Position numbers and translations under genes: made by a program | Shown: positions 26,879 through 44,748 of the stretch, piece after piece | How the letters are laid out: every line of letters begins with the position of its first letter | How positions within the stretch are numbered: the first letter of the stretch is position 1 | The notes under the pieces: generated by a model | What the model saw: only the letters and a program-made list of their open reading frames with translations | Databases searched by the model: none | Told to the model about the DNA's origin: nothing | Assembly: GCA_023511295.1 (NCBI GenBank) | Contig: JAIMBT010000002.1 | Location: 62,001-126,000 of the forward strand | DNA length: 64,000 nt | Origin: Alicyclobacillus sp. | GTDB lineage: Bacteria; Bacillota; Bacilli; Alicyclobacillales; Alicyclobacillaceae | Direction of reading: 5' to 3'

Positions 26879-28282
26879 TCAGCGGATGTTGACGTTGAAC
26901 CGGAACCGGTTTTCGGGGTCGTACGTCGCTTTCATCCGGCGCAAGGTTTCGTAGTTGTCGCCGTAGGTTTGCTTCACGACCGCTGTCACATCCGCTTCCA
27001 ACCCCGCAAGGTTCAGGTACGTGCCACCATTGTACTGGTGCGGCTGCAGCGATTGGTGCGCCGCGCCGACCCAGTCCAAGTACGGCACCAGGTCAATCAC
27101 GCTGTCCGCCGTCGCATCGAAGGTGACGACGCAGGACGCGCCGCGGTCCCCAAAGGCCGTAGCTCCGGATTCGACCCGTGCCATCGCCCCGCCGAGCGGC
27201 CACACCATCGCCATCGCGCTGGGACCGGCGGAATCCACCGCCGCCTGCACCGCCGCTTCGACCGCGTCGGTCCACGCGCCCACGTAGAGCGACCTTGCGA
27301 ATGCGGGACGGCCGGGCTGAATCATCGCATCCAGCATGTGGTGCAGGGTCACGTAATTCATCGGTCCGGATAGGTCCAGTATGGGGCGCGCGAGCTGACG
27401 GAGCGGTTCAATTTCAGCCGCCGCAACGGCGAAATCGGTACCTGCGTGAATCCCGGTCATCATGACCACCTTGCGGCCGTGGAGTTGAGGCGGCACCATC
27501 GGCGCGTGCGGCATCGTGATGCACTCCATGTTGACGCTGATGTCATCCGTCGCCGTGGCCAAGAATTCCACGCACCCCCGCGCCACCCGGGCCATGTCCG
27601 CAGCGTCGAACACGAGGTGAATGGCGAACACCTCGGGCCCGATGGGGTGCAGTTGAAACTCCATCGAGACGGCCACTCCGAAGTTGCCACCACCGCCGCG
27701 AATCGCCCAGAACAGGTCGCTGTTCTCGGTTGCGCTCACGTGCACGAGCCGGCCGTCGGCGAGAACGAGGTCCGCACCGAGGAGGTTGTCGCACGTGAGG
27801 CCATACTTTCGGCGAAGGTACCCCAGTCCGCCGCCGAGCGCCAAACCACCCATGCCGACCGCCGCGGCGTTGCCCGTCGGAACCGCTAAGCCAAAGGCTT
27901 GGGTCTCGCGGATGACGTCCCCTGCCGTGGCACCCCCCTGCACGATGGCGGTCTTGCGTACCGGGTTTACGGACACCGCACGCATCCGGGAGAGGTCCAA
28001 CATGACCCCGCCATCGCAGGAGCCGTGGCCAGCCAGCGAATGTCCACCGCAGCGCACGGCCACGGGGAGCTGATGCGCGGCCGCGAATCGCACACTGGCA
28101 ACCACATCCGCGGCGCCTTCACAGACGACAATGAGCCGCGGTTTCCGGTTGAACAGACCGTTCCACACTTGCCGGGTCGCATCGTACGATGCCTCCCCAG
28201 GCGTTATCACCGTCCCATCCACCGCATTTCGCAGGGATGCGATGGCGTCTTCCAACCCTTCTACCAGGTTCCCAATGGACAT
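26879..28282 (-). CDS. FAD-linked oxidase, berberine-bridge-like
   Basis: The protein is 467 aa. An FAD-binding PCMH domain carries CGGHSLAGHGSCDGG, whose first His is the usual 8-alpha FAD attachment site, followed by TGNAAAVGMGGLALGGGLG and RGGGGNFGV. The BBE C-terminal strand YDPENRFRFNVNI closes the protein. The Cys that makes a second FAD bond in bicovalent members is replaced (VGMGG). The family oxidises sugars, alkaloids or other alcohols with oxygen; the substrate here is unknown. No signal peptide is seen. It lies downstream of the cupredoxin gene in the same direction, with a 74-base gap. Confidence 0.85.
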   Translation of the reverse strand: MSIGNLVEGLEDAIASLRNAVDGTVITPGEASYDATRQVWNGLFNRKPRLIVVCEGAADVVASVRFAAAHQLPVAVRCGGHSLAGHGSCDGGVMLDLSRMRAVSVNPVRKTAIVQGGATAGDVIRETQAFGLAVPTGNAAAVGMGGLALGGGLGYLRRKYGLTCDNLLGADLVLADGRLVHVSATENSDLFWAIRGGGGNFGVAVSMEFQLHPIGPEVFAIHLVFDAADMARVARGCVEFLATATDDISVNMECITMPHAPMVPPQLHGRKVVMMTGIHAGTDFAVAAAEIEPLRQLARPILDLSGPMNYVTLHHMLDAMIQPGRPAFARSLYVGAWTDAVEAAVQAAVDSAGPSAMAMVWPLGGAMARVESGATAFGDRGASCVVTFDATADSVIDLVPYLDWVGAAHQSLQPHQYNGGTYLNLAGLEADVTAVVKQTYGDNYETLRRMKATYDPENRFRFNVNIR

Positions 28283-28356: not shown

Positions 28357-30183
28357 TCACATTCCGGGCATTCCAGACATATCCGAACCCGTGGAAGCGC
28401 TCCCGTTCGACGCTGAACCCGTCGTGGACGAAGATCCCGCTCCCGCAGGGACGCTCGGCACGCTGCCGGCGTGGGCTTGCGGCGTCGCATCCCACGTGCT
28501 GCCGTTCCAAGATCCGCTCAGCCCGATGGCGGACAGCGCTGCCCGGACCGCGTCGATCGAGACGAACGTGGTGGCGATGTGCGTGCCCGGCCACGCCTTG
28601 ACAATCCCCGCCGTGCGGCCCACCAGGTGGCCGTCGATGTAGAGGTTGTCATTCCCGCTTCCCTTCGTCCATCCAGCCGTGTGGACGCCGTGTGGTGCGG
28701 TCACCTTCCAGTCGCGGCCATTCCAGGAGCTGTGAATCCCGTTTGCCTTCAGCAACTGTTCTACCGACCACAGCGGGACGTAGGTGGTGCCACCGCGCAC
28801 GAAAGAGGGTACGTCCAGCACAGTGTTGTCCAGCGCGAAGGTCGACACACCCGGCTGCGGCACGACGTCGACTTCGCCGTACATGCCCATCACATCGTGC
28901 AACAGGCAGCGGTACGCGAAGTCACCGCTTTGCAAGAATGTCAGCGTGTAGGTGGAGCCCGGAACCATGAAGCCAGAGTTGAAGTAGCCAGTCCCCGCGT
29001 AGATATGGCCGCCGTACGGAACGGGCATCAGGCTCTCGTTGGGAATATCGCTCCAGCCCTTCGGAAGAAAGGTCACCGTGTGGACTTCATTCACGCCGGT
29101 CTGGGTCCAGACCACCTGGTCTCCGGGATGGATGGTGAGGGTCTTCGGAAGAAAGCGCTCGTACGCGAACGATGGATTGTCAATCAAACCGGTCGCCACG
29201 ACCTGGTGGCTCGCGTCCTCGATGTCGAGGTTCCAGATCCCCTGCGGCAAGCCGCTCGCCTGGACAGATCCCGTCACGGTCGCCGTCCCGTCGCTGTTCA
29301 CCGTGATCTTCTGGAAGGATGAACCGGGCACCGCTGTTCCGCTACCGCTCTCACCCTCCGAGAGCACGGCGCTGTACGACTGTCCCGGCGTCAAGCCCGT
29401 CAACTTCGCGGTGATACGGTAGGTGATGTTGGGGTCCGAACTGGAAGGCGGTAGCGCGAAGGCAATCAGGGCGTTACCGGTTGCCGAGCTGCCCCCCGCC
29501 GCCTTCAATTGGAACGACACAGCCTGTGGCTCCGGCGCGTCCGTTTGTGCGTAATACGTCGTCGTGCCGTTCGCGTTGTGTTTCGTCTTCAAGTGGAACG
29601 AGGCGACGGCTTTTTCACCAGCGCTAAAATCGGCCTGTTCCTGTTGCTGCGACTGTGCGTCGTACTGCGCCTGTGTCATGGGATACGCGGTACCTGCTGG
29701 GTTGACAATCACAACCCCCATCATGCCAGGATGCAGGAGGCAATAGTAGGGGTAGACGCCCGGCTTCGTGAACTGAAGGGTGTAAGGCTTGCCCGTCAAC
29801 AGGCCCGAGGACGTAAACGTTGATCCATCGTAGGTCGACCCACCGGCGGGCATCTGTGCCGCAGGAGAGGTCGATGCTGGCAGCTTGCCGTCTGCTCCGG
29901 GAAACGTCACGGTATGTCCAGTCCCGGTAAACGTCACAGAATCTCCCGCGTCAATCGTGAGGACGTTCGGGAAGAACGCCATCGCCATGATTCCGTCTTG
30001 GGACATGGGGCCGACCGTGACGTGCCACGTGGTGCCGGATGTGCTGCTGGTCCCTGTCGCACTGGTGGTGCCGGATGCACCTGTCGATCCGGTGTCCGCC
30101 ATCGCCATCGGCCCAACGCTCGCCATCACGGCAAACGCCACGAGGCCAATCCCTGCGAGTTTCACGCCCTGCATTCGTTTCAC
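28357..30183 (-). CDS. Exported two-cupredoxin protein with stalk domain
   Basis: The protein is 608 aa with an N-terminal signal peptide (about residues 1-29). The first cupredoxin domain has GHTVTF and YYCLLHPGMMG (His, Cys, His, Met copper set). A middle beta-sandwich follows, then a second cupredoxin with VHTVTF and YRCLLHDVMGM. The C-terminal part resembles the copper amine oxidase N-terminal 'stalk' repeats (VPLWSVEQLLKANG; SWNGSTWDAT) and ends in a Ser/Met-rich tail. It is likely a surface electron-transfer or copper-binding protein (inference). The GTG start follows AGGGGGAAT. The upstream region carries a four-repeat promoter element and a hairpin in the leader. Confidence 0.85.
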   Translation of the reverse strand: MKRMQGVKLAGIGLVAFAVMASVGPMAMADTGSTGASGTTSATGTSSTSGTTWHVTVGPMSQDGIMAMAFFPNVLTIDAGDSVTFTGTGHTVTFPGADGKLPASTSPAAQMPAGGSTYDGSTFTSSGLLTGKPYTLQFTKPGVYPYYCLLHPGMMGVVIVNPAGTAYPMTQAQYDAQSQQQEQADFSAGEKAVASFHLKTKHNANGTTTYYAQTDAPEPQAVSFQLKAAGGSSATGNALIAFALPPSSSDPNITYRITAKLTGLTPGQSYSAVLSEGESGSGTAVPGSSFQKITVNSDGTATVTGSVQASGLPQGIWNLDIEDASHQVVATGLIDNPSFAYERFLPKTLTIHPGDQVVWTQTGVNEVHTVTFLPKGWSDIPNESLMPVPYGGHIYAGTGYFNSGFMVPGSTYTLTFLQSGDFAYRCLLHDVMGMYGEVDVVPQPGVSTFALDNTVLDVPSFVRGGTTYVPLWSVEQLLKANGIHSSWNGRDWKVTAPHGVHTAGWTKGSGNDNLYIDGHLVGRTAGIVKAWPGTHIATTFVSIDAVRAALSAIGLSGSWNGSTWDATPQAHAGSVPSVPAGAGSSSTTGSASNGSASTGSDMSGMPGM

Positions 30184-30566
30184 TGCAAATTCCCCCTAGT
30201 TATGGTTGGCTCCCGCCAGCAGGGCCGGTGGGCCGTGACAACCGGGCCCTGCGTCGCGGTTCCAAAACTGCGCGCACTGTGCGTACAACTCCCTATTTCA
30301 AGCTTCCAACCCGACCCGATCTCCTTACCCTCAAGCTCTCTGTCGGCCCGCCAATGGCGCACGGCCCAGCGCCGCACAGGCAAATCATCGCTGCCTGTCG
30401 AATTTGATTGTAAAGTGGAGAAGTGTCCCAACCGTCCCGAGATTGTTCCAGATGTTCCAACCTGGAGGCCGATGAAGGGGTGTTGCGGAAGGACGTTTCG
30501 TGGGGAAAATCGCAGATGAAGCGATGGCGGGCGTCGAGGGTGCAGCCGTGCAGAAGCAACCCGCCC
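30184..30566. other. Leader and promoter region of the cupredoxin gene
   Basis: This 383-base gap has no supported gene. It contains the four-repeat element (30,425-30,458) with TACAAT at 30,407-30,412 on the minus strand. Transcription from there would give a leader of about 215 bases. Within the leader, 30,221-30,250 can form a stem of AGGGCC-GGT with ACC-GGGCCCT and one bulged base, close to the ribosome site. The leader may be regulatory. Confidence 0.5.
30407..30458 (-). promoter_or_regulatory. Four-repeat promoter element upstream of the cupredoxin gene
   Basis: Read on the minus strand, GGAAC, GGAAC, GGGAC and GGGAC occur at 30,454, 30,445, 30,434 and 30,425, with steps of 9, 11 and 9 bases. 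The -10 like TACAAT (30,407-30,412) follows 12 bases after the last repeat. An almost identical layout precedes the cyclic-nucleotide-binding gene at 39,059-39,111. Confidence 0.6.
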
Positions 30567-31664
30567 CTAGGGGTCCCGCCGGCCTACGACCTGATACACG
30601 GCCATCGGACTTGCCTTGCCCCGAATCTCGAGCGGTCCGCAGTCCGCAGTGAGCACCTGGTCCGCCACAGCTTGGTACGTGCGCTCGCTGATGAAGATGG
30701 CGTTGTCGTGCCCTTTGGTGAGGCGTTCTAACCGAGACGCCACGTTGACCGTGTCTCCAATGGCCGTGTACTCCACTCGGTCTGCAGAGCCGATGTTGCC
30801 AACGACGACCTCGCCCGTGTTGATGCCAATCCCGACCGTCAGCGAACCCGCCAACGGGCGGTCTGGCGTATCGTTCCAGGCATTCACCTGCTCCACCATG
30901 TCAAGTGCGCACAGGACGGCGTTGAGGTGGTTGCCGAGGTGCGAAACCGGGGCCCCAAACATCGCCATCAGGCCGTCTCCGATGAACTTGTTGACGGTTC
31001 CGTGATGGCGTCGGACGCACGCCGTCATCACAGAGAAGTAGTCGTTCAGGAAGCGGACGACATCTTTTGGGTCCATCGCCGCGGAGAGCCGGGTGAAATC
31101 GCGGATGTCGGACATGAGTACGGAGACGATGCGGGACTCGCCCTTAAACAGGTCGTGTTCGCCCTCACCCTCCAAAACCCCGCGGAGGACATGCTCGGGA
31201 ACGTACTTCTGGAACAGCTTCATGACACGCTCCTGGTAGGCCACCTTCTGCTGGAGTTCGTCCAACAACCGTTGATTCTGCCGTTGGAGGCGCACCAGGT
31301 CGGCGGCGCGATGCAGCGTGACCCGCAGCTCCTGTTCGTCCCACGGTTTGGTGATATATCGGTACACGTGGCCGTTGTTGATGGCGTGGACCACACTTTC
31401 CACGTCGCTGAAGCCTGTGACAATCATGCGCACGGTATCAGGAAACTCTGGAAGGATGGCCTCGAGGAACTGGACACCTGTCATGTCTGGCATGCGCTGA
31501 TCTGTGAGAACAATCGGGATGTCGTGCGCGCGCAGCAGTTGCACCGCCTCGTGTGCGGAGGAGGCGGTGTAGATCTGGAAGGTCCTGCGGAACATCGCCC
31601 GGAACGAAACCAGGTTGTGGGATTCGTCGTCGAGATAGAGAATGGAGATATCGGATGGTTTCAT
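30567..31664 (-). CDS. Response regulator fused to class III adenylate/guanylate cyclase
   Basis: The protein is 365 aa. A receiver domain (residues 1-125) has the acidic pair Asp12-Asp13, phospho-acceptor Asp55 in VLTDQRMPD and Lys in ITKPWDE. A linker leads to a class III cyclase domain (about 165-360). That domain has SDIRDFTRLS and GDGLMAMFGAP (metal Asp residues), Lys in NKFIGDG and NVASRLE (Asn/Arg for catalysis). All expected catalytic residues are visible, so it should make a cyclic nucleotide, most simply cAMP. It lies 63 bases downstream of the large histidine kinase, its evident partner. It has no DNA-binding domain, so output passes through the second messenger. Confidence 0.92.
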   Translation of the reverse strand: MKPSDISILYLDDESHNLVSFRAMFRRTFQIYTASSAHEAVQLLRAHDIPIVLTDQRMPDMTGVQFLEAILPEFPDTVRMIVTGFSDVESVVHAINNGHVYRYITKPWDEQELRVTLHRAADLVRLQRQNQRLLDELQQKVAYQERVMKLFQKYVPEHVLRGVLEGEGEHDLFKGESRIVSVLMSDIRDFTRLSAAMDPKDVVRFLNDYFSVMTACVRRHHGTVNKFIGDGLMAMFGAPVSHLGNHLNAVLCALDMVEQVNAWNDTPDRPLAGSLTVGIGINTGEVVVGNIGSADRVEYTAIGDTVNVASRLERLTKGHDNAIFISERTYQAVADQVLTADCGPLEIRGKASPMAVYQVVGRRDP

Positions 31665-31727
31665 GGCGGATGCCTCCTCTCGCGGATACCGTGTTCGCCG
31701 AGTGCCCCTGATTCGACGGCTTCGGCG

Positions 31728-34700
31728 TCATTCGTTTCGGCGAATGGGCAAGGTCACGGTGAACGTCGTACCGCGGCCGGGTTCACTGGCTACTTCAATC
31801 GTCCCGTTGTGTCGCTCGACGATGCCGTAGCTGATGGACAGACCAAGTCCCGTTCCGACGCCCAGCCGTTTCGTGGTGTAAAACGGCTCGAAAATGCGCC
31901 GCATCACCTCGGGGCTCATCCCCGTCCCCGTGTCGGAAATCCGAATCTCCACGCGGTCCAGGCGCTGACGCACGGAGATTCGAATTTCGCCGCTACCCTC
32001 GATTGCGTCGACGGCATTGGTCAACAAGTTCATGTACACCTGGTTCAGCTTGCCGGGAAAGCACTCGATATCGGGAACCGGGTGGTAGTCCCGAATCACC
32101 CGGATGCGGGGTTCCAGCCGTTTGCGCAACAGCGTCAGCGTCGACTCCAACCCCTCCGTCACGCTCGCCACCGTCGCTTCGTCGTCGTCAATCCGGGAAA
32201 ACGTGCGAAGGCCCTTGACAATCTCTGACGTCCGGCGCGCACCCTCCGCAATCCCTTCCAACAGCTGTCGAATTTCGGAAGTCAGATCGTCGAGGTCAGC
32301 GGCGGTGCGGATGCGGTCCAACTCGTCACCGAGCTGATGTCCTTCCAGCGCCGCCTCATACGCGCGGAGCACGGCGAGTAATTCCTCAATGTCACGCGCC
32401 AATGGCCCGGCACTGGACACCATGAAGTTCACCGGGTTGTTGATCTCGTGCGCGATCCCGGCCGTCAGTTGCCCGAGCGACGCCAATTTCTCCGACTCCA
32501 GCATCTGTTGCTGGGTCCGCCGTAACTGCTCTGTCCGCTCTTGCACCAAGCGGTCGAGATGGGCGTACACCTTGGCGTTGTCAATCGAGATGGCGGCCTG
32601 TCCCGACAACATGCGAAGCAGTTCCACCCGAGCGGGTGTGAAAACGTGCGTCGCCAGGCGGTTTTCCAGGTACAACACGGCAATCACGCGCCCCTGCTTG
32701 ACAATCGGCTGGCAGAGCAGGGACTTCGCTTGCGTCCGGGCGATGTAGGGGTCGCGGGTAAAGCGGTCGGCGTTGGCCGCGTCGTGCAACACGACGAGTT
32801 CCTGCGTGTGGATGCAATAGCGGACGACGCGCGCAGCCAGGTTGGACGCGGTGTGCAGCGGCTGCGGCTGCGAAAGATCTTCGCCGACGGCGGCCAAAAT
32901 GGACCACTCGCCATCGTGTTCCAGAATCCAGTACCCCCGCTGCGCACCTGCATTCTCGACCGCCAAGGCAAGCATGGTCCGGAGCAGTTTGTCCAGCTGG
33001 ATCTCGCTCGAGATGGCCTGAGAGGCGCGTAGGATGGTGGAGAGATCAAGCACCTGCAGCGCACGCGACCGGCTCGACGCCGTATGGCGCTCCAATTTCG
33101 GCCGCAGGCTGTTGTCCAAGTCCCCGTCAGCGGAGAGGAATGGATGGGCCGCTTCCATCTGTTCCACTTTGCGCCGGGCGCCCCACTGTGCGTAGAGGTC
33201 GCGGGCGTCGACGAGGTACCCGCGCGCCAACTTCGACTTGCGGCGAGCCAGGTAGAAGCGGCCGGCGCACTCGTTGATGATGGCCTCGTGGTGCGTATAC
33301 CGGCCGGCCCGCGCTGCGTCGATGGCGGCGTCATACAGGTCGCCTGCGCGCGCGCTGGAGCCGAACAGCGATGCGCACTCCGCTTCCACCGCGAGGTGCA
33401 TGTGACGATAATTGTCCGGGCACTGCGCTGCCCACACCCGGAACACGCGCCGCAGCGTGCGCAACTGCTTACGCCACCGCACCCGCCCATCGGCATCCGC
33501 CGACCGGCACGCGGCGGTGGCCGTCAGCGCCCGAAAAAACGCGTACTCCGGAACGAGGAAACCCGTGCAGTCCAAACTCGCGGTGAACCAGTCGGCAAAC
33601 GAGTCGTCCGCAGTGAAAGCCGGCGTCTGCGCGTCAAGGAGGTACGCCTCTGCACACGCAAGCAGATTGTGAACCAGGTGAAGGTCGGAGGTGAAGCCCG
33701 ACGGTTCCGGCAACTCCGATTCGCCGGTGGTCGGGACAAGAGGTTCGACCCCCAGCGCGGTGGCGCCGACCCGCGTGCAAAACGCAGACAGGCGCGCGCA
33801 CACCTCGCTCGGAAACGACAGGCGGAACTCTGCCGCCATCCGCGACACGTCCCGGGACCGGTCGGCGACGGTTGCCAGCGGATCGCCGCAGCAGAACAGC
33901 AGCAACGGCTTGCAACCCGCGTGCAACACCGCAAAGTTATTGGCCCCGATGGACCGCATCCCTTCGTCGTAGGCATCCAGGGCGGTGACCGCCGCACGCA
34001 GCGGATGGCGCCAGTGATGGACCGCGGTAGCGTAGGTGACCAGCACGTTGAGGCGAGCGCGCCCGTAGTGGTCGTCGTTGCCGTGCTGAAACTGCTCAAT
34101 CACCTGCAAGGCGACATCCCCCAGGCGGCACACCTCCGCGAGGTCGTCGGCCACATCGATGCGCGCCAGGTGGACCGTGCCCAGAAAGCCAATCGCCGAA
34201 TCGGGACAGAATCCGCGCACCATGGACAGCTCCGCCACCTTGAGCCAGAGGTAGGCCATCCAATTCGGGTCGCTGGTCACAGCGTTGGACGTCACCTGCA
34301 GGATGCGAAGGACAATCGCCAGCGCCGCGTCTGCCCGCCGATGGGCGATAGACGCCCCGTCCACTTCAATTTCGCTGAGCATCTGCACGACGCGAGCGTA
34401 CTCTGCTCTCGCTGTGCGCTTGCCGACGTGCCGCGGCAACTCGATGCCGTACAGGTGGAGCGCGTCCCTTGCCGCTTGCATCAACGCGGGGTACTGAACG
34501 CGCATGGTGAAGACGTTGATCTGGCACATGTACGCCTCGAGCTGGTCTCGTACGGTCCGAGCGCGCGCCAGCAGGATGTCGGCCATCGCCAGGGTCTCGT
34601 CGTACTCGTTGCACAAAAATGCGTGGCGCATGCGCTCCACGACCAGCGCGGCCGCGAGGCCGTCCGGTTCCTCCCAGTCGGCGTCCCGAAGCCACTGCGT

Positions 34701-37076
34701 GCCCTCGCGAAAGTACCGCAACGCCTCGGCGAACATCCCGGCTCGGCGAGCCTGCCGGCCCGCCTCCAGGTTGGCCGTCGCCGCCTCCAGGCGCAGTTCG
34801 CCCGCTGCAAGCAGGGGCCGGGCTCGGTTGTAGTGGTCGGCGAGCGCGGAGCCCCGCTCCGTCTCGCGAAGCGTCCGAACGACCTTCTCATGCGTCGCCG
34901 CTTTGTCCTCTTCCGAGAGGTCCTCGTAAGCGGCCGTTCGCACCTTCGCATGTACAAACTGGAAGTGAAAGGGCGCGCTGTGCTGGGCAGCTTCCCGCGC
35001 GTTCCACCCCTGCAGGTCCGAAGTCGATGCGACGTCGGCGCGCTCCACCCATCCATCCGCCAGCAGTTCAGAGAGTGCCGCCAATGTCGACTCCATCGGC
35101 TCGTCGCGAACGGCGGCCAGCAAGCGCGCGCTGAACTGCACCCCAATGGCTGCCGCTTGCCCCAGAAACCGGCGCTGCGCCGGGGACAACCGCTGCAGAC
35201 GCCGCATCAAAGAATCAACCACATTCGCCGCGCGGTCGAGGCGGCGGATGGCGTCGAGTTTGACGTGCCAGGCGCTGGTCCCTGCGTCAAACCACAGCAG
35301 CGATTGGCGCTCCATGACCTCGAGCAACTGCCGCACCGCGAACGGAACCCCCTGCGTCTTGTCCAGGACGACATCCGCGAGTTGATGGACTTCCTCTGCG
35401 GTCAAGCCGGTTGTGTCGGTCAGCCACGCCTGAAGGGCCGCCGCATCGAGCGGCGCCAGCGCCACCCTCTCCGAACCCAGTTCGTCCTCCGCCCACAGGG
35501 CCGGGGCACGGTCCATTTGGGCCGCGATGACCAGCAGGGGGCGATCTTGCGCACGTCGGGTCAACTGCCGCAGCCAGGCCAGCGAGCTCTCATCCGCCCA
35601 CTGGACGTCGTCGAGCAGCACAGCCGCCGTCTGGTCCATGTCGCCACAGACGTTGACCAGCCGCTGCAGTGCGGTGTCGACCGCGGTCTTGAATGCGGTT
35701 TCGTTCTGAACCGGCAACTCCGGCACCATCTCGGTCACTGCGGCAAAGTACGGCACGACGCTGGCGAGCAGCGCGCCGTACGGTGCGACCGCCTCCGTCA
35801 GTCGCGCGCGCCAGCGCCTCAACTCGTTCTCCGGCAACTCTAGCAGGCGTGCGAAAACCTGTCCAAACGCCTCCAGCAGTCCGGCGAATGGGACGGACCG
35901 GGTATCGGGTGTAAACGAGCCGAACGCGACCCACAACGTCCGTTCTTGCAGATGGCGCACCGCCTCGCGCAACAGGGCGGTCTTGCCGATACCTTCCGGT
36001 CCACGGACCTCGAGCAAGGCCGTTCTTCCCTGGTCCGCCTCCTGAATCGCGTGCGCCACGGCCCCCCATGCTCGCTCCCTCCCGTACAGGCGCGTGTGGC
36101 CGCGCAACGACGGTACCGTGTCCAGCCGACCGACGCGAAAGGCCGGAATGTCGCCGGATTTCAGCCAGGCGTCGAGGCAAATCTGGAGGTCTGCGAGGAG
36201 ACCGCTCGCGCTCTGGTAGCGGTCAGCGGGGTTCTTCGCGAGGCATTTGAGGACAACGTCGGAGAGCGCAGGCGGAATCGCGGCATCGGAGTGGTTCAGA
36301 GGTTCCGGAATCTTGGCCAAATGGGCGTGCACGAGCTCGACCACACGGTGTTCAGCAAATGGTGGAGAACCTGTAAACAACTCGTACAAGCTCGCGCCAA
36401 AAGCGTACAGGTCGGTGCGTTGGTCGACGGGTTGTTCCATACGTCCAATCTGCTCCGGCGACATGTACGGAAGCGTGCCCACCGGGCTTTCGCCGCCGAA
36501 GGGCACCATGTCCGATGTGTCCCACGCATCCGATGGCGGGCCCGCCAGAGGCGCTGCCATCCCGTCCGGAAGGGCCGTATCGCCTCCGCTTCCCCGCACC
36601 GCTGCGAGTCGGACCGCGTTCTCAAAGTCGATGAGTTTGACCTGTTGGATATCCGCTGTCACGAGGATGTTCGACGGGTTGACGTCCCGGTGCACGATGC
36701 CCTGCTGGTGCAGTTGCTCTAGGCATGCCGCCATTCGAACGGCCAGCTCCAGCTTTTCGGTCAAGCCGAGGCTGCAATCCCGAAGCATGTCCGCCAACGA
36801 CGACGCCCCATTGTCCTCCAGCACCAAGACCGGGGTCTGTTCGGAGGTCAGGAGGCCGTATGTGCGCACCGCTGCGCGAGTCCGAAGACCTCTCAAGATG
36901 TCGTACTCGCGGCGATAACCGGCCCAGACATCCGGCGAGGCGTAATTCCCATTCGGCGCCTTCAGGACGACCGGGATGCCCGTTCCGCTCTGCACCGCCC
37001 GGAAGATCTGTGTGTTGCGAGATGTGTACACTGCCTGAACGATCCGGTACTCACGAATTTCCAGCAAACTGTTCAC
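31728..37076 (-). CDS. Giant sensor: protein-kinase-like, STAND ATPase, GAF and histidine kinase
   Basis: The protein is 1,782 aa. Residues ~1-290 form a Ser/Thr-kinase-like domain with HRDVNPSNI and IDFE where canonical kinases have HRDxKPxN and DFG. A P-loop STAND-type ATPase follows (GPEGIGKTALL at about 364). A long helical, TPR-like region extends to about 1,330. A GAF domain (~1,345-1,500), the HisKA phospho-acceptor in GIAHEINNPVNF (His about 1,543) and an HATPase domain with NAVDAIEG, SDTGTGM and GTGLGLSI finish the protein. No membrane segments are seen, so it is a cytoplasmic sensor. The response regulator-cyclase follows in the same operon. This architecture is known in cyanobacteria and some other bacteria; the signal is unknown. 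Confidence 0.93.
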   Translation of the reverse strand: MNSLLEIREYRIVQAVYTSRNTQIFRAVQSGTGIPVVLKAPNGNYASPDVWAGYRREYDILRGLRTRAAVRTYGLLTSEQTPVLVLEDNGASSLADMLRDCSLGLTEKLELAVRMAACLEQLHQQGIVHRDVNPSNILVTADIQQVKLIDFENAVRLAAVRGSGGDTALPDGMAAPLAGPPSDAWDTSDMVPFGGESPVGTLPYMSPEQIGRMEQPVDQRTDLYAFGASLYELFTGSPPFAEHRVVELVHAHLAKIPEPLNHSDAAIPPALSDVVLKCLAKNPADRYQSASGLLADLQICLDAWLKSGDIPAFRVGRLDTVPSLRGHTRLYGRERAWGAVAHAIQEADQGRTALLEVRGPEGIGKTALLREAVRHLQERTLWVAFGSFTPDTRSVPFAGLLEAFGQVFARLLELPENELRRWRARLTEAVAPYGALLASVVPYFAAVTEMVPELPVQNETAFKTAVDTALQRLVNVCGDMDQTAAVLLDDVQWADESSLAWLRQLTRRAQDRPLLVIAAQMDRAPALWAEDELGSERVALAPLDAAALQAWLTDTTGLTAEEVHQLADVVLDKTQGVPFAVRQLLEVMERQSLLWFDAGTSAWHVKLDAIRRLDRAANVVDSLMRRLQRLSPAQRRFLGQAAAIGVQFSARLLAAVRDEPMESTLAALSELLADGWVERADVASTSDLQGWNAREAAQHSAPFHFQFVHAKVRTAAYEDLSEEDKAATHEKVVRTLRETERGSALADHYNRARPLLAAGELRLEAATANLEAGRQARRAGMFAEALRYFREGTQWLRDADWEEPDGLAAALVVERMRHAFLCNEYDETLAMADILLARARTVRDQLEAYMCQINVFTMRVQYPALMQAARDALHLYGIELPRHVGKRTARAEYARVVQMLSEIEVDGASIAHRRADAALAIVLRILQVTSNAVTSDPNWMAYLWLKVAELSMVRGFCPDSAIGFLGTVHLARIDVADDLAEVCRLGDVALQVIEQFQHGNDDHYGRARLNVLVTYATAVHHWRHPLRAAVTALDAYDEGMRSIGANNFAVLHAGCKPLLLFCCGDPLATVADRSRDVSRMAAEFRLSFPSEVCARLSAFCTRVGATALGVEPLVPTTGESELPEPSGFTSDLHLVHNLLACAEAYLLDAQTPAFTADDSFADWFTASLDCTGFLVPEYAFFRALTATAACRSADADGRVRWRKQLRTLRRVFRVWAAQCPDNYRHMHLAVEAECASLFGSSARAGDLYDAAIDAARAGRYTHHEAIINECAGRFYLARRKSKLARGYLVDARDLYAQWGARRKVEQMEAAHPFLSADGDLDNSLRPKLERHTASSRSRALQVLDLSTILRASQAISSEIQLDKLLRTMLALAVENAGAQRGYWILEHDGEWSILAAVGEDLSQPQPLHTASNLAARVVRYCIHTQELVVLHDAANADRFTRDPYIARTQAKSLLCQPIVKQGRVIAVLYLENRLATHVFTPARVELLRMLSGQAAISIDNAKVYAHLDRLVQERTEQLRRTQQQMLESEKLASLGQLTAGIAHEINNPVNFMVSSAGPLARDIEELLAVLRAYEAALEGHQLGDELDRIRTAADLDDLTSEIRQLLEGIAEGARRTSEIVKGLRTFSRIDDDEATVASVTEGLESTLTLLRKRLEPRIRVIRDYHPVPDIECFPGKLNQVYMNLLTNAVDAIEGSGEIRISVRQRLDRVEIRISDTGTGMSPEVMRRIFEPFYTTKRLGVGTGLGLSISYGIVERHNGTIEVASEPGRGTTFTVTLPIRRNE

Positions 37077-37112
37077 CCATCCGTCGTTTCGATGTCCTGT
37101 CGGCCGTAGCCG

Positions 37113-38429
37113 TCAATCGTCCGTAACCGCAGCGGCGCCCTCCACAACCGGAGCAGATGTCGCACGCCGACGCTGGAGCTCCCGCAGCGCTTGGCGGAAG
37201 CTGAAGATGGAGAAGAGGGCCAGTGCAAACGCGCACGCGTAGAGCACATCGGCGCGTAGCGCGGAAAACAACGGTGCGCCGAAGGTGTAACCGACAAACA
37301 TGCCGAGAAACAACGACGTGTTGATGGCCGCAAACGACAGCGCAGGCTTTTCGCGCCCGGCCGCGCCCGCCATGACCTCGCTGATCTTGGGCATCGCAAC
37401 CACCTCGCCGAGGCCGTACATCCCAATGCCGATGAACCATCCCACGGCATGAGTGGAAAAACCCGCCACCACCAAGCCGATACCGAGGACGGTCACCCCA
37501 CTGCCGATGACGCCGATGGCGGAGCGCCGTTTCGTCAGCCGAGCCGCCGCTGGCGTGAGGGCCAGCGCCAGCGCAGCGACCTCTGTATTCATGAAACCGT
37601 AGTATTGGGGACCATGCGTGAACTGGGCCGTCATGTACAGTGGTACCGTCGACGTCAGTTGGGCTTCCAGTACAATGTAACAGAGAAGTGCGAGAAACGT
37701 CCAGAATATGATCCGATTCGCGCCCACCCACCTCATCGCGTCGAGAAACGACGGATGAACGGCCTTCGGCGGTTTCGAATCGCTTCCCGGCGCGCTCGCC
37801 TCGCCGTCCGCCTTGCCGTTCGTTGCACCTTCCGCGTCGCGGAGGAAGAAGAGAATCAGGAGGGACATCGCGAGCAGGAGGCAACCAGCGACCAGAAAGG
37901 CGGTCGGCCGGGTGCCGGCGCGAAGGACCAGGGCCGCCGTGGGCGGGCCGATGACGATGGCGAGGTTGTTCAGCCAGTAGACCGTGGTCTGGATGGCCCC
38001 GGCATGTTCCTCGGCGACGCGGACGTTCAGAAGGGCTTGTGCGCCGCTTCGGGTGGTGGACATCGCAAGGCCGAGCAAGATGGCAATCGCAAGGAGCGCA
38101 CCGTAGCTGTGCAGGAACCGAAACGCCCCGAGGCACAGCCCGTTCAACAACAGCGCTGCACAGTACGCCCGGCGGATGCCGACGCGGTCCGACAGGTAAC
38201 CGCCGACAACCCCGAACAACGCGCCACACAGTGGCGTGATGCCGATGAGCACACCCGCCCTTGCGGCACTGAACCCGAGCGCATTGTGGTAATAGATGAC
38301 AAAATACGGTTGAGCCATGTACGTCGAGAAGGACGTGAAAAACGCCGTACCGAGCACCAGCAGGACCGCAGGTGTCCACCTCGGCGCGGACCCCTGGCCG
38401 GAGACTGCGACCGCCTTCACAGAAGACAT
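37113..38429 (-). CDS. MFS transporter
   Basis: The protein is 438 aa with about twelve membrane helices and the MFS loop 2-3 motif GGYLSDRVGIRRAY. A charged cytoplasmic loop around residues 200-220 separates the two halves. The substrate is not predictable. It lies 36 bases upstream of the giant sensor gene in the same direction and may be co-transcribed, which could tie transport to signalling (inference). The ribosome site is weak (GAGGCG). Confidence 0.88.
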   Translation of the reverse strand: MSSVKAVAVSGQGSAPRWTPAVLLVLGTAFFTSFSTYMAQPYFVIYYHNALGFSAARAGVLIGITPLCGALFGVVGGYLSDRVGIRRAYCAALLLNGLCLGAFRFLHSYGALLAIAILLGLAMSTTRSGAQALLNVRVAEEHAGAIQTTVYWLNNLAIVIGPPTAALVLRAGTRPTAFLVAGCLLLAMSLLILFFLRDAEGATNGKADGEASAPGSDSKPPKAVHPSFLDAMRWVGANRIIFWTFLALLCYIVLEAQLTSTVPLYMTAQFTHGPQYYGFMNTEVAALALALTPAAARLTKRRSAIGVIGSGVTVLGIGLVVAGFSTHAVGWFIGIGMYGLGEVVAMPKISEVMAGAAGREKPALSFAAINTSLFLGMFVGYTFGAPLFSALRADVLYACAFALALFSIFSFRQALRELQRRRATSAPVVEGAAAVTDD

Positions 38430-38521
38430 TGGACGTCGCCTCGCATTCGCGCGTAGCCGGAATCCGGGTCATCCGGGCACGGAACGCGGCGCGAACAACC
38501 ATCTCAGCCGGAGCGACGGGC

Positions 38522-38998
38522 CTATGGGAACAGCGCGTTCATACGCCGAAGACGCTCCGACAGGATGCAGCCGATGTCGAACAGAATCCCGTGTGCGAGC
38601 GACGGGCGCTCTTCAGCCAGCCGCGTGAAAGCGGTCCAGTGCAAGGACCGGAGTTCGCCGTCTGTCAGCGCTCGGACGGTCGCTGAACGCGGGCGGCCAT
38701 CCAAAAACGCCTGCTCCCCGAACACGGAACCGGCTTGGATACGCGCCGCCAGGCGGGCATCCCCCGTGGCCCCTGGCACCCACACCTCCAACTGTCCGCC
38801 AAGCACGATGTGCAGCGTCCGGTCCGTGTCTCCGTACTCCAGAATCGTTTGACCGGCTTGAAACAGGGTGCTCCGCGTAAAGGCGAGCAACGCCGCCCAG
38901 TCGTCCGCACTGCGGTGCTTCATGAACGGGACCGACGGCTCGTGTACGCGCTCGTCGTCCCTGGCGTCGTTCTGAAAGGCGGATAGGTTCACCAACAT
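38522..38998 (-). CDS. Stand-alone cyclic nucleotide-binding domain protein
   Basis: The protein is 158 aa and consists of one cyclic-nucleotide-binding fold. GSVFGEQAFLDGRPRSATVRAL is the phosphate-binding cassette, with the Glu and Arg that hold cAMP in CRP-type domains. Unlike CRP/FNR proteins it lacks a C-terminal helix-turn-helix. It is therefore likely an adaptor or effector that reads the cyclic nucleotide made by the nearby response regulator-cyclase (inference). The start is ambiguous: ATG at 38,998, or GTG at 38,992, which is better spaced from GAGGTG. A four-repeat promoter lies just upstream. Confidence 0.85.
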   Translation of the reverse strand: MLVNLSAFQNDARDDERVHEPSVPFMKHRSADDWAALLAFTRSTLFQAGQTILEYGDTDRTLHIVLGGQLEVWVPGATGDARLAARIQAGSVFGEQAFLDGRPRSATVRALTDGELRSLHWTAFTRLAEERPSLAHGILFDIGCILSERLRRMNALFP

Positions 38999-39058
38999 TC
39001 ACCTCTGTCTTCGAGGGAGCGGCTGGAGCCACCGCAACCCGGATGACCCGTCATCGTC

Positions 39059-39111
39059 AGTGTAGCGCCGTCTGCTATCCCAAACGTCCCAAGTTTTGTC
39101 TCATCCGTCCC
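39059..39111 (-). promoter_or_regulatory. Four-repeat promoter element upstream of the cNMP-binding gene
   Basis: On the minus strand GGGAC, GAGAC, GGGAC and GGGAT occur with steps of 9, 12 and 9 bases. TACACT (39,059-39,064) follows 12 bases after the last repeat. A 20-base stretch is nearly identical to the element at 30,425-30,458. It is probably a binding array for an activator that contacts the -35 region. Confidence 0.6.
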
Positions 39112-39147: not shown

Positions 39148-41262
39148 CTAGGTCCACCGGCGCAGATAGACCTCGGCAAAGTGGCGGTGAGCGTCTGCGA
39201 GCACGCGGTAGTACGTCGTGCGACTCATCGCCATGCGCTGCGCGATGGAGATGGCTGTACCGGAGCGATCTAGATACGTGAGGCGGAGCAGGCGCTGCTG
39301 CTCGGCCGTGAGCGGAGGTTCCACCTGATCTGTGATGAGCAGGCCCACGAGTTGGTCGCGCACCGCCTGGACGCTGCCCGGTACACCTCGCTCCTTGACG
39401 AACTCCTCGAGAAATCCGAAGTGGTTGAGGTGCTTGAGGAGCTCTCGAACATCCGCTTCGGTCGGCTGGAACCCGCCAGCGTCCAACCGCGGCAGGGCCA
39501 TTTCATCCGGCGGCGCATCGGCACGTGAAGGGTCAAGCGCGCGTTCTTCCGTCGAAATCCGGTTGCTTTCGTCCGGCGCTGTACCCAAAACCGCGCGTAG
39601 CCAAGACGACAGGTCGATGCATCCGTCGAACCGGTACGCCGTCGTCTCCCCGTCGGGGCCTTCGACACCCGGCCCGAGCAGCGTGCTCGCCCAGGTCGGC
39701 CACGCCTCCGTCGGCCGGAAGTACAAGGTCTGCCCAGACTGCAGGGCCTCGACGAGCGCATCCGCAATCCAAGTGACCTCGAGGTCGCCTTCCGGTTCCC
39801 CTGCGTTTTCCGTCGCAACGGGGAGAGGAATCACCATCGTCTCCCCGTCCCTATCCGCTCGGTCGGAAAGTGCGGCGCGGCTGACTCCCTGTCGCCCGGC
39901 GAACGTCGAGACTTGCCCCATCGGCGCCCACAGCGAAGCCGCGGCAAGACGCCGCTCCGAGTCTCGCCACACCCGTACCCCGGAGCCGGGGGAAGCGAGG
40001 ATCTCGTTCGCCCAGGCGAGTTCGGTTGCCGAGAGAAGCCTGTTCAGTTCCATGGGCAACTCCCCAGCTGCCCAGTGCTCCTTCGTGAATCCCTGCAGCG
40101 GCTCCGTCCAGACCGTCGAGGTCGTTTCGTCGTCCAGTCCCCAAAATTCCATCAGGAGCGTCAGCGCGTGGGCCAACCAGCGCACGGCTGCCGCCGGCGA
40201 CACCGGCGCGGCCGACGTCCCCGTGCGTCCCGGGTTCGGACGGGGAACGAGATGGGCCGGACTCGCTCGTCGTGCAGCAGTGAGGACAGCGTGCTGTAGC
40301 AGGCGGCGCGCCTGGATAGGCGCGCACCAATGCAAGTCTTGCCGCAGGAGGCGCGCCACAGCCGGGTGCAGGTGCGCGCCATCCGGCCCAGCGGTGACGG
40401 TCGACAGACGGGTCAGTGCATCGAAGTCCTGCCACGACAGAGGCTCGCCGACGGCCTCCGACAGTTCGTCTTGGTGTGCTGTGTCGAGAAAGGCGAGCGC
40501 GAACAACGCCGACACAGCGGTCGGTTCATGAGACGGCCCGCCACGCGCCTCACCGGTTCGCACAGCCACCAGTTCCTCGACAAACCCGCGAACCACGGGG
40601 CGAAACGTCGCAGCGACCGAACGTTGCGGAACCAGCGGGCTGCCGAGCGCGCAGACGAACGCCCCGGGGTGTCCACCGGTCCAGCGATGCAGAAGACGGA
40701 CGCGAACGGGATCGAGCGAGGGGGATAGGTGCCGTGCGGCAGTCTCGGCCTCCGCCGCCGTCCAAACGCCAAGCTGGCACGTCAGCCAACGTTGGGACGC
40801 GGCGTGCGGGCCGTGCGCGGGCCCCGGGTGCCAGGTCCGATGCGCAACGACCAGCACGCGACGGGGTGACGCAATGGACGGGCCGGGCCCGGAGGTCACG
40901 CGCGCCGGGTGACCCGGCAGAGCGTCGAGTCCATCGTCCAACAGCCGAGCAAGCTGGAGTGCCCACTCGGCACAGGCGTCTGCGTGATCAACGAACAGGA
41001 CCGCGTGCGACCGCTCCCCAGTTCCCGGTGTCAGAAACGAGCGGATGTCCGCAAAAGGTGGCCGTTCCGCCCGGCAATCCAACCACTGCGCCTGCACGCC
41101 ATGGGCGACTGCGTACTGAAACAGATCCCGCAGGAAGCAGGTTTTACCAGTCCCGGGCATCCCGGTCACCGAGATCACCGTCACGGGACGCTCTGGCATG
41201 CGCAGAACCGGTACCACCTGCGCGCGCTGTTCTCGCCACACCGCACCCTCTATCGCGCTCAC
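39148..41262 (-). CDS. AAA/STAND ATPase with C-terminal helix-turn-helix
   Basis: The protein is 704 aa. Near the N-terminus VTGMPGTGKTCF is a Walker A loop and AVLFVDHAD a Walker B strand. The middle looks like the helical and sensor parts of a STAND-type ATPase. The last ~60 residues form a sigma-region-4/LuxR-like HTH (LTAEQQRLLRLTYLDRSG, then MAMSRTTYYRVL). No named family is recognised with confidence. I chose the GTG at 41,260-41,262, which has GGGGTGA upstream; the longer open frame overlaps the TetR gene. It lies just upstream of the four-repeat promoter and is a candidate for the protein that binds it (inference). Confidence 0.72.
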   Translation of the reverse strand: MSAIEGAVWREQRAQVVPVLRMPERPVTVISVTGMPGTGKTCFLRDLFQYAVAHGVQAQWLDCRAERPPFADIRSFLTPGTGERSHAVLFVDHADACAEWALQLARLLDDGLDALPGHPARVTSGPGPSIASPRRVLVVAHRTWHPGPAHGPHAASQRWLTCQLGVWTAAEAETAARHLSPSLDPVRVRLLHRWTGGHPGAFVCALGSPLVPQRSVAATFRPVVRGFVEELVAVRTGEARGGPSHEPTAVSALFALAFLDTAHQDELSEAVGEPLSWQDFDALTRLSTVTAGPDGAHLHPAVARLLRQDLHWCAPIQARRLLQHAVLTAARRASPAHLVPRPNPGRTGTSAAPVSPAAAVRWLAHALTLLMEFWGLDDETTSTVWTEPLQGFTKEHWAAGELPMELNRLLSATELAWANEILASPGSGVRVWRDSERRLAAASLWAPMGQVSTFAGRQGVSRAALSDRADRDGETMVIPLPVATENAGEPEGDLEVTWIADALVEALQSGQTLYFRPTEAWPTWASTLLGPGVEGPDGETTAYRFDGCIDLSSWLRAVLGTAPDESNRISTEERALDPSRADAPPDEMALPRLDAGGFQPTEADVRELLKHLNHFGFLEEFVKERGVPGSVQAVRDQLVGLLITDQVEPPLTAEQQRLLRLTYLDRSGTAISIAQRMAMSRTTYYRVLADAHRHFAEVYLRRWT

Positions 41263-41478: not shown

Positions 41479-42102
41479 ATGGTCAAGGGTCCCGAGCGGC
41501 GGCGGCCCGGACGCCCGCCGGCCTCCAGCACGGACATTCCGACGCAAAGCAGGATTCTCCAGGCAGCCGCACGGTTGTTCATGGAGTTTGGCGTGGACGG
41601 CGTGAGTATGGGCCAGATTGCGGAAGCGAGCGGGCTGACCAAAGCCGTACTGTACTACTATTTCCGGTCCAAGACGGACCTGTTTGTCGAGGCCGTGGTT
41701 CGCGTTCTCGAGATCTCCCGAGAGAAAACGCAGGCCATCCTGGATGCGCCGGAACCATTGTATAGCAGGCTCTTGCGGTTGATGCGCACACGCCTCGGCA
41801 TTGCGGCACCTTTGGAGTGGGGCGCCGCGCTGCACGGCAGCCGGAACGTGCTCACGGCGGACCAAATCCACGCGATAGAGCGCGCGGAACAGGCGCTCTT
41901 CGACACCGTTGCGGCTGCCCTCGGCACCGCGGCCGAGCGGGGCGAGATTCGCTGCATTGCCCCAGACCGGGCGGCGCGCGTCTTCATGTCCCTCGTCTCC
42001 ATCGGCCATGCGGAACTGGAACGAATCGGAACACGTGCAGACGTGGCCGCGGTCGCGAAATCCTTCATGGACATCTTTTGGTCAGGGATTGGCCCAGCGT
42101 GA
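41479..42102 (+). CDS. TetR/AcrR family transcriptional regulator
   Basis: The protein is 207 aa. The N-terminal HTH spans about residues 25-70 and has the family pattern ILQAAARLFMEFGVDGVSMGQIAEASGL (abbreviated here by its ends), then TKAVLYYYFRSKTDLF. The C-terminal helical domain is the ligand and dimer part and is not recognisable to subfamily. A GAGGTGA ribosome site precedes the ATG. It is divergent from the AAA-HTH gene with a palindrome between them, so autoregulation and control of that gene are likely (inference). Confidence 0.92.
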   Translation: MVKGPERRRPGRPPASSTDIPTQSRILQAAARLFMEFGVDGVSMGQIAEASGLTKAVLYYYFRSKTDLFVEAVVRVLEISREKTQAILDAPEPLYSRLLRLMRTRLGIAAPLEWGAALHGSRNVLTADQIHAIERAEQALFDTVAAALGTAAERGEIRCIAPDRAARVFMSLVSIGHAELERIGTRADVAAVAKSFMDIFWSGIGPA

Positions 42103-42477: not shown

Positions 42478-43920
42478 TTAGGACTGCGACTGCGCCCACT
42501 GGACAAATCGGGCCGCATCTTCCGGCGAAGGCAGACGCGTGCCGGCGATGTCGCTCGCAGCGCCCAGGTTGTTGTCCCACCCGTGGGATTGACGCCAGCG
42601 AATGGGCTCGAGCTGAACGGTGAGGGTCCTTGTGCCGCCTGCGCGCACCGGTTCGTCGTATCCGACCGCGGGCGCATACCCGTCCTTCCAGACGATAACG
42701 GTCGCGACCTCCGGAGGTCCCGCCACGTTCCACGGCCCGCTGAAGCGCCAATCGCCGATGCCCGGCGTTTGGATGGTCGCGGTGTTCCCATTGGCGTCCG
42801 TGGTCTGCAGTTGACTCACGTGCACGCCGGCAAGAATCCGGACGGAAGCACCGGACACCGGCCGTCCCGATGGGTCTTGCACGTGGATGGAGAGGCCTCC
42901 CTGTGTATCCGAAGCCGGACGGCGGGACTGCACGGACGTCCCGCTGCCCGGCGCGAGCGACGCAGCCCAAGCCGCGAGTGCCTGCCCCGCCAAAACGTGG
43001 TACGAGCTGTAAGGGCCGGTGTCGAACCCGTACCCCACGCGTTCCGGTGTCTCCCCCGGCGCGCCGACTTGCATGGTAAAGGTCTGCGTAAACGTCCCAT
43101 CCCCGTTCCCGAACACCCCGACATCGTAGGCGACAATGGGCCGGTAACCCGTTCTCCACACCACCACCACCAGATCTCCCTGGGGTGAAAGCGACGCCTC
43201 GGCACCGCTCAAGATAGGGGCCAGTGCAGGGTCGACCGCCAATTGCAGGTTGGTGCGCGGCGTCTGACCCGCTGCATTGGTCACAAGGGTGTGCAGGATG
43301 CGTCCGCCCGCAATGAGGACGACGTGGACACCGGCGAGCGGGGCGCCGGACGCCGTGTCGACGGTGACCTCAGCGCTCCCTGCGACCACGGCACTGGCCG
43401 CCTTGGCGAGCAGAGGAAGCTGGGTGGCGCGGCTCGACAGTGGTTGGTTGACCAAGTTTTGCACCGTCACGCCCGACGAGGTGCCGGTGCCGGCACCGAC
43501 CTCGACCAGGTTGTCCGCAGAAGGCGCGTTTCGAACCGCCACCGACTGATCCCCTTGTCGGCTCCCCGCGCCGCCGCCGGGCACCCATCCGCGCTCCGCC
43601 AGGGTCCAACCGGCCCCTGCGGCGACAACCACTGCGGCAGCCGCCGCTCCCGTCGCCTTCCAGCGCCAGCGCCGCTCCGGCGCGTGCTCGCGGGGACCGC
43701 GGTGCAGCGCGCCCACCACGTCGTCGTGAAACGTGGCCCGCGGCGCTGGAACCGCTGCCCGAAGCGCGGTTTCGAGCCGCGCCGCCAATTGCCGCGTGTG
43801 CTCCAGTCGTTCGGCGCACATCGGGCAGCGCATGGTGTGCGTCTGCACTTCCGCCGCCTCGGTCACCGTCAACTCACCGTCCAGATATCGCCACAGGTCC
43901 TCGACACGGAGGTGGCTCAC
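42478..43920 (-). CDS. Transmembrane anti-sigma factor with zinc-finger domain
   Basis: The protein is 480 aa. The N-terminus has the ZAS pattern His28-x3-Cys32-x2-Cys35 (HTMRCPMC). A single membrane helix lies at about 86-106. The large extracytoplasmic part contains repeated beta-sandwich segments resembling carboxypeptidase regulatory-like domains (GVHVVLIAGG; GASVRILAGV). It should hold the ECF sigma factor inactive until an envelope signal arrives. The start overlaps the sigma gene stop by 4 bases (ATGA), so both are made together. The unusually large outer region suggests it senses the wall or a ligand directly (inference). Confidence 0.88.
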   Translation of the reverse strand: MSHLRVEDLWRYLDGELTVTEAAEVQTHTMRCPMCAERLEHTRQLAARLETALRAAVPAPRATFHDDVVGALHRGPREHAPERRWRWKATGAAAAAVVVAAGAGWTLAERGWVPGGGAGSRQGDQSVAVRNAPSADNLVEVGAGTGTSSGVTVQNLVNQPLSSRATQLPLLAKAASAVVAGSAEVTVDTASGAPLAGVHVVLIAGGRILHTLVTNAAGQTPRTNLQLAVDPALAPILSGAEASLSPQGDLVVVVWRTGYRPIVAYDVGVFGNGDGTFTQTFTMQVGAPGETPERVGYGFDTGPYSSYHVLAGQALAAWAASLAPGSGTSVQSRRPASDTQGGLSIHVQDPSGRPVSGASVRILAGVHVSQLQTTDANGNTATIQTPGIGDWRFSGPWNVAGPPEVATVIVWKDGYAPAVGYDEPVRAGGTRTLTVQLEPIRWRQSHGWDNNLGAASDIAGTRLPSPEDAARFVQWAQSQS

Positions 43921-44450: not shown

Positions 44451-44565
44451 GCCAAACGCTCCTTTGGCGGCTTCACTCGTTCGCTCAGGCAGAGACGGAC
44501 CTGTCTTGCCGGGCCGGTCCCAGCTGAGCTCCGTAAGGCGTGCGTGGCCTGAGTTCAATACTCCA

Positions 44566-44591
44566 GACGAACGGGTGGTCAAAATGTTACA
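44566..44591 (-). promoter_or_regulatory. ECF-type promoter of the sigma/anti-sigma operon
   Basis: On the minus strand TGTAAC (44,586-44,591) and CGTC (44,566-44,569) are 16 bases apart, close to the SigW/SigX class consensus (TGtAAC, CGTC). The start codon is about 115 bases downstream. A sigma-A-like TTGACC (44,577-44,582) with TATTGA 16 bases later overlaps it, so dual control is possible. Confidence 0.55.
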
Positions 44592-44748
44592 CGCTTTGCC
44601 TGGCCAGCCTACATGACGGGCGGGGCGCCGCCCTGTGGACGTCGCCTGTCTACCATCCGGCATGGCCGGGCAACGTCGCAAGATGCCTGGAAAACCTTGT
44701 ATCACACGCACGTCAAGATGTGTCTATTCTACCTTGTAGGGGACCTCG

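Follow-up and report, generated by a model that had tools for sequence, protein, structure and literature searches.

The window analysed here, a stretch of 64,000 nucleotides from an Alicyclobacillus sp. genome, contains on its minus strand a series of genes which is interspersed with two arrays of short repeats, designated sites A and B (Table 1). In the direction of transcription, a gene for an nSTAND-ATPase/HTH protein, the proposed regulator, is followed by site B, the genes for a cyclic-nucleotide-binding (cNMP) protein, an MFS transporter, a kinase and a response regulator-cyclase, and then by site A, the cupredoxin gene and the FAD oxidase gene. The first repeat of site B lies 36 bases behind the stop codon of the regulator gene. 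The start of this gene was inferred to be the GTG at 41262, with the mechanical open reading frame extending to 42009. The cNMP-binding protein carries no HTH or other DNA-binding domain detectable with Pfam. The cupredoxin protein shows two matches of the plastocyanin/azurin type and, in our own reading, its C-terminus might be a repeat resembling copper-amine-oxidase-N1; its gene is preceded by site A with a leader of about 220 nt. Site A probably also drives the FAD oxidase gene located behind it, with start sites being inferred. Elsewhere in the window (42478-44711), an ECF-type sigma factor is encoded together with a zinc-finger (zf-HC2) anti-sigma-like protein with carboxypeptidase-regulatory domains. 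No matches were obtained when the window was scanned for Rfam families and tRNAs.

Table 1. Genes and promoter elements in the analysed window
Feature	Position	Strand	Remark
BBE-type FAD oxidase	26879..28282	minus	74 bases past the cupredoxin gene
Exported cupredoxin-domain protein	28357..30183	minus	Pfam Copper-bind, E=6e-16, 2 stretches
Site A, four-repeat array and -10	30458->30407	minus	predicted promoter of the cupredoxin gene
Site A, repeat units	GGAAC 30458-30454, GGAAC 30449-30445, GGGAC 30438-30434, GGGAC 30429-30425	minus	
Site A, spacer	30424-30413	minus	12 bases, acttctccactt
Site A, -10	30412-30407	minus	TACAAT
Response regulator - adenylate/guanylate cyclase	30567..31664	minus	
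Ser/Thr kinase - AAA_16 - GAF - histidine kinase protein	31728..37076	minus	1782 aa
MFS transporter	37113..38429	minus	neighbour of the cNMP gene
Cyclic-nucleotide-binding protein	38522..38998	minus	158 aa; first gene of the site B operon; Pfam PF00027, E=7e-18
Site B, array and -10	39111->39059	minus	predicted promoter of the cNMP/MFS/kinase/cyclase operon
Site B, repeat units	GGGAC 39111-39107, GAGAC 39102-39098, GGGAC 39090-39086, GGGAT 39081-39077	minus	
Site B, spacer	39076-39065	minus	12 bases, agcagacggcgc
Site B, -10	39064-39059	minus	TACACT
nSTAND/AAA ATPase with C-terminal sigma-region-4/ArpU-like HTH	39148..41262	minus	about 704 aa; proposed regulator
TetR gene	41479-42102		

Read along the minus strand, the sequence of site A is GGAAC atct GGAAC aatctc GGGAC ggtt GGGAC acttctccactt TACAAT and that of site B is GGGAC ggat GAGAC aaaactt GGGAC gttt GGGAT agcagacggcgc TACACT. 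An earlier note, made from the sequence alone, had reported pentamer steps of 9-11-9 (site A) and 9-12-9 (site B) as well as 12 bases between the last repeat and the -10 at both sites, and all of these values held exactly. The absence of an ordinary -35, also stated there, was confirmed, with hexamers located at 15-19 bases from the -10 of either site agreeing with TTGACA in at most 1/6 positions. The similarity of the two sites, given as about 17/20 bases in one block, was corrected to about 16/20 for the best 20-base block, and two of the eight pentamers described as GGRAC-like deviate from GGRAC (GAGAC and GGGAT, both in site B). For scoring, a pentamer matrix was built exclusively from sites of other genomes and TAnnnT was required at a distance of 12. 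Site A reached 26.7 and site B 23.1, compared with a maximum of 13.5 when the window was subjected to 300 dinucleotide shuffles. Without the -10 requirement, the best shuffle attained a repeats-only score of 23.4, and site B is therefore convincing through the combination of repeats, -10 and conservation but not through its repeats alone.

Searching the complete genome (3.43 Mb) revealed two further arrays. Site C (C27:42966-42999) was found by a pattern without a -10 and has TAGAAT exactly 12 bases on; site D (C14:35183-35235) was found by a pattern comprising half an array plus a -10 and likewise has 12 bases to a TAGAAT. The scan for the proximal half plus -10 yielded these four arrays and no others, and the full-array scan gave four at 0-1 mismatch together with one chance-like match at 2 mismatches; the genome-wide counts rest on such pattern searches. 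Sites C and D each head one of two paralogous operons, consisting of a gene for an MFS-like membrane protein and then a polyketide synthase (PKS) gene. The latter encodes a KS-AT-ACP protein of the PfaA type (TIGR02813, 935 bits, under the cut-off of 1010). The leaders following the two -10 elements are near-identical, which makes C and D probable duplicates, and roughly 24 bases at the start of the predicted transcripts are the same in both (AAACGACGGGAAGCGACAGGAAGG; L033:7921-8000, L034:8184-8260). This identity may reflect duplication or a conserved leader element, and both PKS promoters might go back to a single ancestral duplication. The earlier note had seen a pair of genes and would have been refuted by a lack of further copies near related genes; this lack was not observed, and the two genes belong to two of at least four operons. 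Two repeat clusters of other layout were noticed as well. Just upstream of site C (L033:8000-8050), units in the opposite orientation read GGAAC gcgt GGAAC gaat GGAAG with 9-base steps, and at another locus (L019, G000:C20:205515-205541) three GGGAC units with steps of 9 and 10 have no -10 at 12; ATCCCAACGTCCCA lies about 80 bases off these units on the other strand, and the cluster is outside the array rules.

For the detection of arrays in relatives, the neighbourhoods of ATPase/HTH homologues were fetched and then scanned. Five arrays were found in Alicyclobacillus montanus (G011), two in A. sacchari (G033), and one each in A. tengchongensis (G031), in another genus of the family (G002), and in a Bacillota MAG (locus L058). 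A. montanus has the whole operon, and one array is located between its regulator gene and its cNMP gene (L048:9901). It reads GAGAC aatgtt GGAAT gtat GAAAC-12-TACATT with a degenerate first repeat, and this weak site was recognised partly through its position. Further arrays of this species precede the FAD oxidase gene (L048:6264), the cupredoxin gene (L093:7428, minus strand) and a PPDK_N/PEP-utiliser/MFS operon (L093:17133). Its fifth array (L092:6382-6433) is a good one with TACAAT at 12, but the next 850 bases or so contain no clear gene; a small RNA or a lost gene is conceivable at this place. A. sacchari has one array between the regulator and MFS genes and a second before the FAD oxidase gene (L050:12096), and the single array of A. 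tengchongensis is also located between the regulator and MFS genes. At the MFS sites of these two species the fourth unit is degenerate (GTGAA and TTCAT, respectively). In G002, seven repeats in a row with steps of 9-9-9-9-12-9 lie behind the regulator gene, leaving 12 bases between the last of them and TACAAT; the four proximal units begin 67 bases after the gene. The adjacent regulator gene (L053:5511-7657) is split over two overlapping frames, which could be a frameshift or a sequencing error. In the Bacillota MAG, the array precedes a gene (L058:2686-4524) which encodes an MFS transporter fused to a cyclic-nucleotide-binding domain, domains which are encoded by separate neighbouring genes in the window. 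This fusion and the gene adjacency in the window together suggest gating of the transporter by cNMP.

The placement of the arrays is orthologous in several cases, namely after the regulator and before cNMP or MFS genes in our genome, A. montanus, A. sacchari and A. tengchongensis, before the cupredoxin gene in our genome and A. montanus, and before the BBE oxidase gene in A. montanus and A. sacchari. Arrays are kept at orthologous genes across genera although the surrounding sequence has diverged. Missing conservation in related species had also been named in advance as an argument against a regulatory array, and it was not encountered. A first pattern applied to 100 relatives returned matches outside our own genome (L003-L009) which were coding or random and were discarded.

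Throughout all 14 sites from six genomes, TAnnnT is found exactly 12 bases from the last repeat, and at none of them is it found at 4-11 or 13-16 bases. The -10 had not been used to find sites A, B and C and the sites from the neighbourhood scans of relatives, in sum at least eight; it had been used for three A. montanus sites and site D, and for the MAG site a -10 score was allowed at 11-13. All 14 lack a usable -35 in the range of 15-19 bases from the -10. With the -10 placed at -12 to -7, the proximal pair of repeats covers about -38 to -25. With a box located from about -40 to about -25, a -10 of the sigma-A type and the lack of a functional -35, the sites fit the promoter layout of sigma adaptation in the AfsR and PafBC mode, with start sites being inferred from the -10. 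The fixed phasing of 12 bp to the -10 at 14 sites points to contact with the polymerase. The claim that the array replaces the -35 is in agreement with the sequence; start sites, binding, and the choice between activation and repression are unproven.

The arrays are found in genomes encoding a relative of the window's regulator, usually beside the regulator gene. Seven of the 59 genomes of the order contain its HTH DNA-binding domain, and a full array at ≤1 mismatch was detected in 4/7 of these vs 0/52 of the others (35/455126, about 8e-5 if the genomes were independent). The genomes are not independent, and neither are the phylogenetic samples behind this co-occurrence. A scan of 400 genomes of the class at ≤1 mismatch gave seven matches in three HTH genomes, four elsewhere, three of which represent one conserved sequence, and three in the reversed control. 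The class-wide background amounts to about 3-4 matches per 400 genomes, with the few strict matches in non-carriers being chance-like. In the protein search, relatives of the ATPase/HTH protein appeared in few genomes of the order, the best being that of A. montanus, a homologue with a like motif that is 63% identical over the last 100 residues and about 29% over the full proteins. No array was found near some more distant relatives in Alicyclobacillaceae and among the relatives of the MAG (G022, G015, the second copy in G002, and most members in relatives of the MAG), which restricts the link between regulator and array to one subfamily. The STAND-HTH family as such is present in 30 of 61 genomes related to the MAG with 1-4 copies each (L096-L124). 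A search of these relatives for the same geometry with any word yielded one weak candidate not above other chance matches (L111:2895, GGGAA three times and then TATAAT at 12), and the GRRAM pattern in 28 MAG-related genomes recovered only the known MAG site and chance-like matches. Distant family members may possibly read other words. No other DNA-binding gene was noticed that the array loci share: TetR was seen in the window, ArsR in A. montanus and an ECF sigma factor at the MAG locus.

The regulator itself contains the P-loop GMPGTGKT and matches nSTAND_NTPase5 (E=5e-5) and AAA_16 (E=2e-4), with neither match reaching its curated Pfam cut-off; it meets the definition of the STAND class, a P-loop NTPase core together with a DNA-binding HTH. 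Its C-terminal domain matches DUF1492 with 22 bits, just above the cut-off, and remains below that of the ArpU model (16.6 vs 43.1). The last 100 residues are predicted to form two small helical bundles with a pLDDT of about 85-97 per block. Foldseek neighbours of this domain in the PDB with the best probability (0.96-0.99) are sigma region 4 of ECF/SigF (8jzt, 3hug), with a TM-score on the target of about 0.6-0.7 and weak E-values of 0.25-0.7, and a resemblance to viral sigma-70-like proteins was also found in the structure search. An HMM search of PDB sequences with the DNA-binding domain returned nothing significant. The predicted resemblance to sigma region 4 is hence of moderate strength and has to be regarded as a suggestion, not as proof. 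Sigma region 4 is the domain which binds the -35, and region 4 of ECF sigma factors reads GGAAC; the repeat word GGAAC/GGGAC is close to this ECF word. For this family of large regulators, no DNA target has been described in the literature searched.

Taken together, the arrays are likely to be binding sites of the regulator encoded at 39148-41262, and the copies in the window promoters of its regulon. The earlier note had already suggested the AAA-HTH protein as the binder, which now has strong comparative support from co-occurrence and adjacency; there are no binding or start-site data. In the mechanism we propose, one protomer of the regulator would occupy each GRRAC unit, and the protomers would be arranged head-to-tail in two pairs, with 9 bp within a pair and 20-21 bp, about two helical turns, between equivalent units. 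The proximal units would fall at roughly -38 to -34 and -29 to -25, where sigma region 4 normally reads the -35. Because these units cover the -35 region, we propose that the regulator takes over the -35 contact and would recruit or position the sigma-A RNA polymerase on a -35-less promoter with a fixed gap of 12 bp to the -10, in a sigma adaptation resembling that of SARP/AfsR or PafBC; activation, like binding, is inferred. The switch may be an oligomerisation of the STAND core driven by ATP or an inducer; both oligomer and inducer are inferred, and the full-length AlphaFold model of the regulator is too poor to be used (mean pLDDT 53.6). The output of the putative regulon would comprise the cNMP/MFS/kinase/cyclase operon, the cupredoxin-FAD oxidase unit and the two paralogous PKS operons. 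The link between a copper protein and second-messenger reading, as proposed earlier, is accordingly real in the sense of a shared promoter type, and it is part of a wider set including polyketide/fatty-acid-type synthases and the BBE-type FAD oxidase.

Among the alternatives, the one surviving best is that another direct-repeat regulator (OmpR/PhoB-type, SARP or BldC/MerR-like) binds the arrays and that the STAND-HTH protein is a co-regulated bystander. In its favour, SARP- and PhoB-like activators typically use tandem short repeats on the -35 at a fixed distance to the -10 (PMC10936776), and the operon itself encodes a histidine kinase and a receiver-cyclase. However, the receiver protein bears a cyclase and no DNA-binding domain, the step of the array is 9 and not 11, and the arrays occur in carriers of the HTH subfamily beside its gene, without any other shared DNA-binding gene having been noticed, so that we consider this explanation unlikely. 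The TetR protein of the window was rejected as the binder, since no such gene was noticed beside the arrays of relatives and the repeats lack palindromic symmetry. Still less probable is a role of the arrays as repressor operators blocking sigma-A at -35-poor promoters. The repeats do overlie the -35 region, but the constant phasing to the -10 argues for polymerase contact, and without a usable -35 under or near the repeats there is little to repress. Two further explanations can be practically ruled out. An alternative ECF sigma factor might read GGAAC as its -35 with the tandem copies being incidental, which would agree with the resemblance to the ECF consensus and with the ECF-type sigma factor and zf-HC2 protein encoded nearby (42478-44711); this reading was rejected on the basis of spacing, since the -10 lies 12 (repeat 4) or 21 bases (repeat 3) away instead of the usual 16-17, and moreover the -10 elements are sigma-A-like (TAnnnT) and four regularly spaced copies are left unexplained. 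An origin of the arrays by chance, or from a repeat family with no function in regulation, is favoured only by the shortness of the pentamers and is opposed by the shuffle scores, by the conservation at orthologous genes across genera and by the low class background.

With the STAND-HTH protein as the preferred reader, these results define a promoter class by exact spacing rules (9/11-12/9, then 12) and name its probable reader. The small regulon which they describe in acid-loving Alicyclobacillaceae brings together cyclic-nucleotide signalling, the exported copper protein, the FAD oxidase and both PKS operons. In a bolder reading, which is no more than a possibility, STAND ATPases captured a sigma-region-4-like reader of the ECF-type "-35 word" GGAAC/GGGAC, its tandem copies over the -35 zone act as a detached, switchable and oligomeric replacement of sigma region 4, and further members of the family would apply this geometry to different words.

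Several known systems resemble this proposal in part. MalT, the STAND ATPase of the maltose regulon, switches to multimers and activates transcription (PMC4381067, PMC6468293) and is, by analogy, similar to the proposed regulator as a multimerising STAND activator. MalT has a C-terminal HTH of the LuxR/GerE type, a TPR sensor and different boxes. The phage late regulators of the ArpU/DUF1492 type and sigma region 4 match the C-terminal domain (DUF1492 with its 22 bits, sigma-4 folds), but ArpU proteins are small and without an ATPase. In PafBC-dependent promoters, a box near -26 is combined with a poor -35, and the activator is inserted between sigma region 4 and the DNA (summarised in PMC10936776); the arrays share the box in the -26 region at poor -35 promoters, whereas PafBC, a WYL-domain protein, has no four-repeat array. 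The nearest described mode is that of AfsR, where a SARP dimer sits on the -35 and itself bears sigma region 4 (PMC10936776), and in PimR monomers bind adjacent repeats cooperatively (PMC5930380). These large SARPs are similar to our proposal as activators with a nucleotide-binding STAND module (STAND/NOD core), and their boxes are similar to the arrays as tandem direct repeats on the -35 at a fixed -10 distance; cooperative monomers bind these boxes side by side (PMC10936776, PMC5930380), as would, by inference, protomers of the regulator on the arrays. SARPs, however, have an N-terminal SARP domain and use 7-bp repeats at steps of 11 (or 22) bp with the 3′ repeat 8 bp from the -10. The 704-aa regulator, in contrast, lacks the SARP domain (Trans_reg_C plus BTAD) in the Pfam scan and has a C-terminal sigma-4/ArpU-like HTH, and all 14 sites consist of pentamer pairs with 9-bp steps, 11-12 apart, at 12 bp from the -10. 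Membership in the SARP family is therefore rejected on account of another domain, another step and another gap. If the proposal is true, a sigma-4-like domain independently came to be used for direct-repeat activation over the -35, a mode which SARPs and PafBC also employ.
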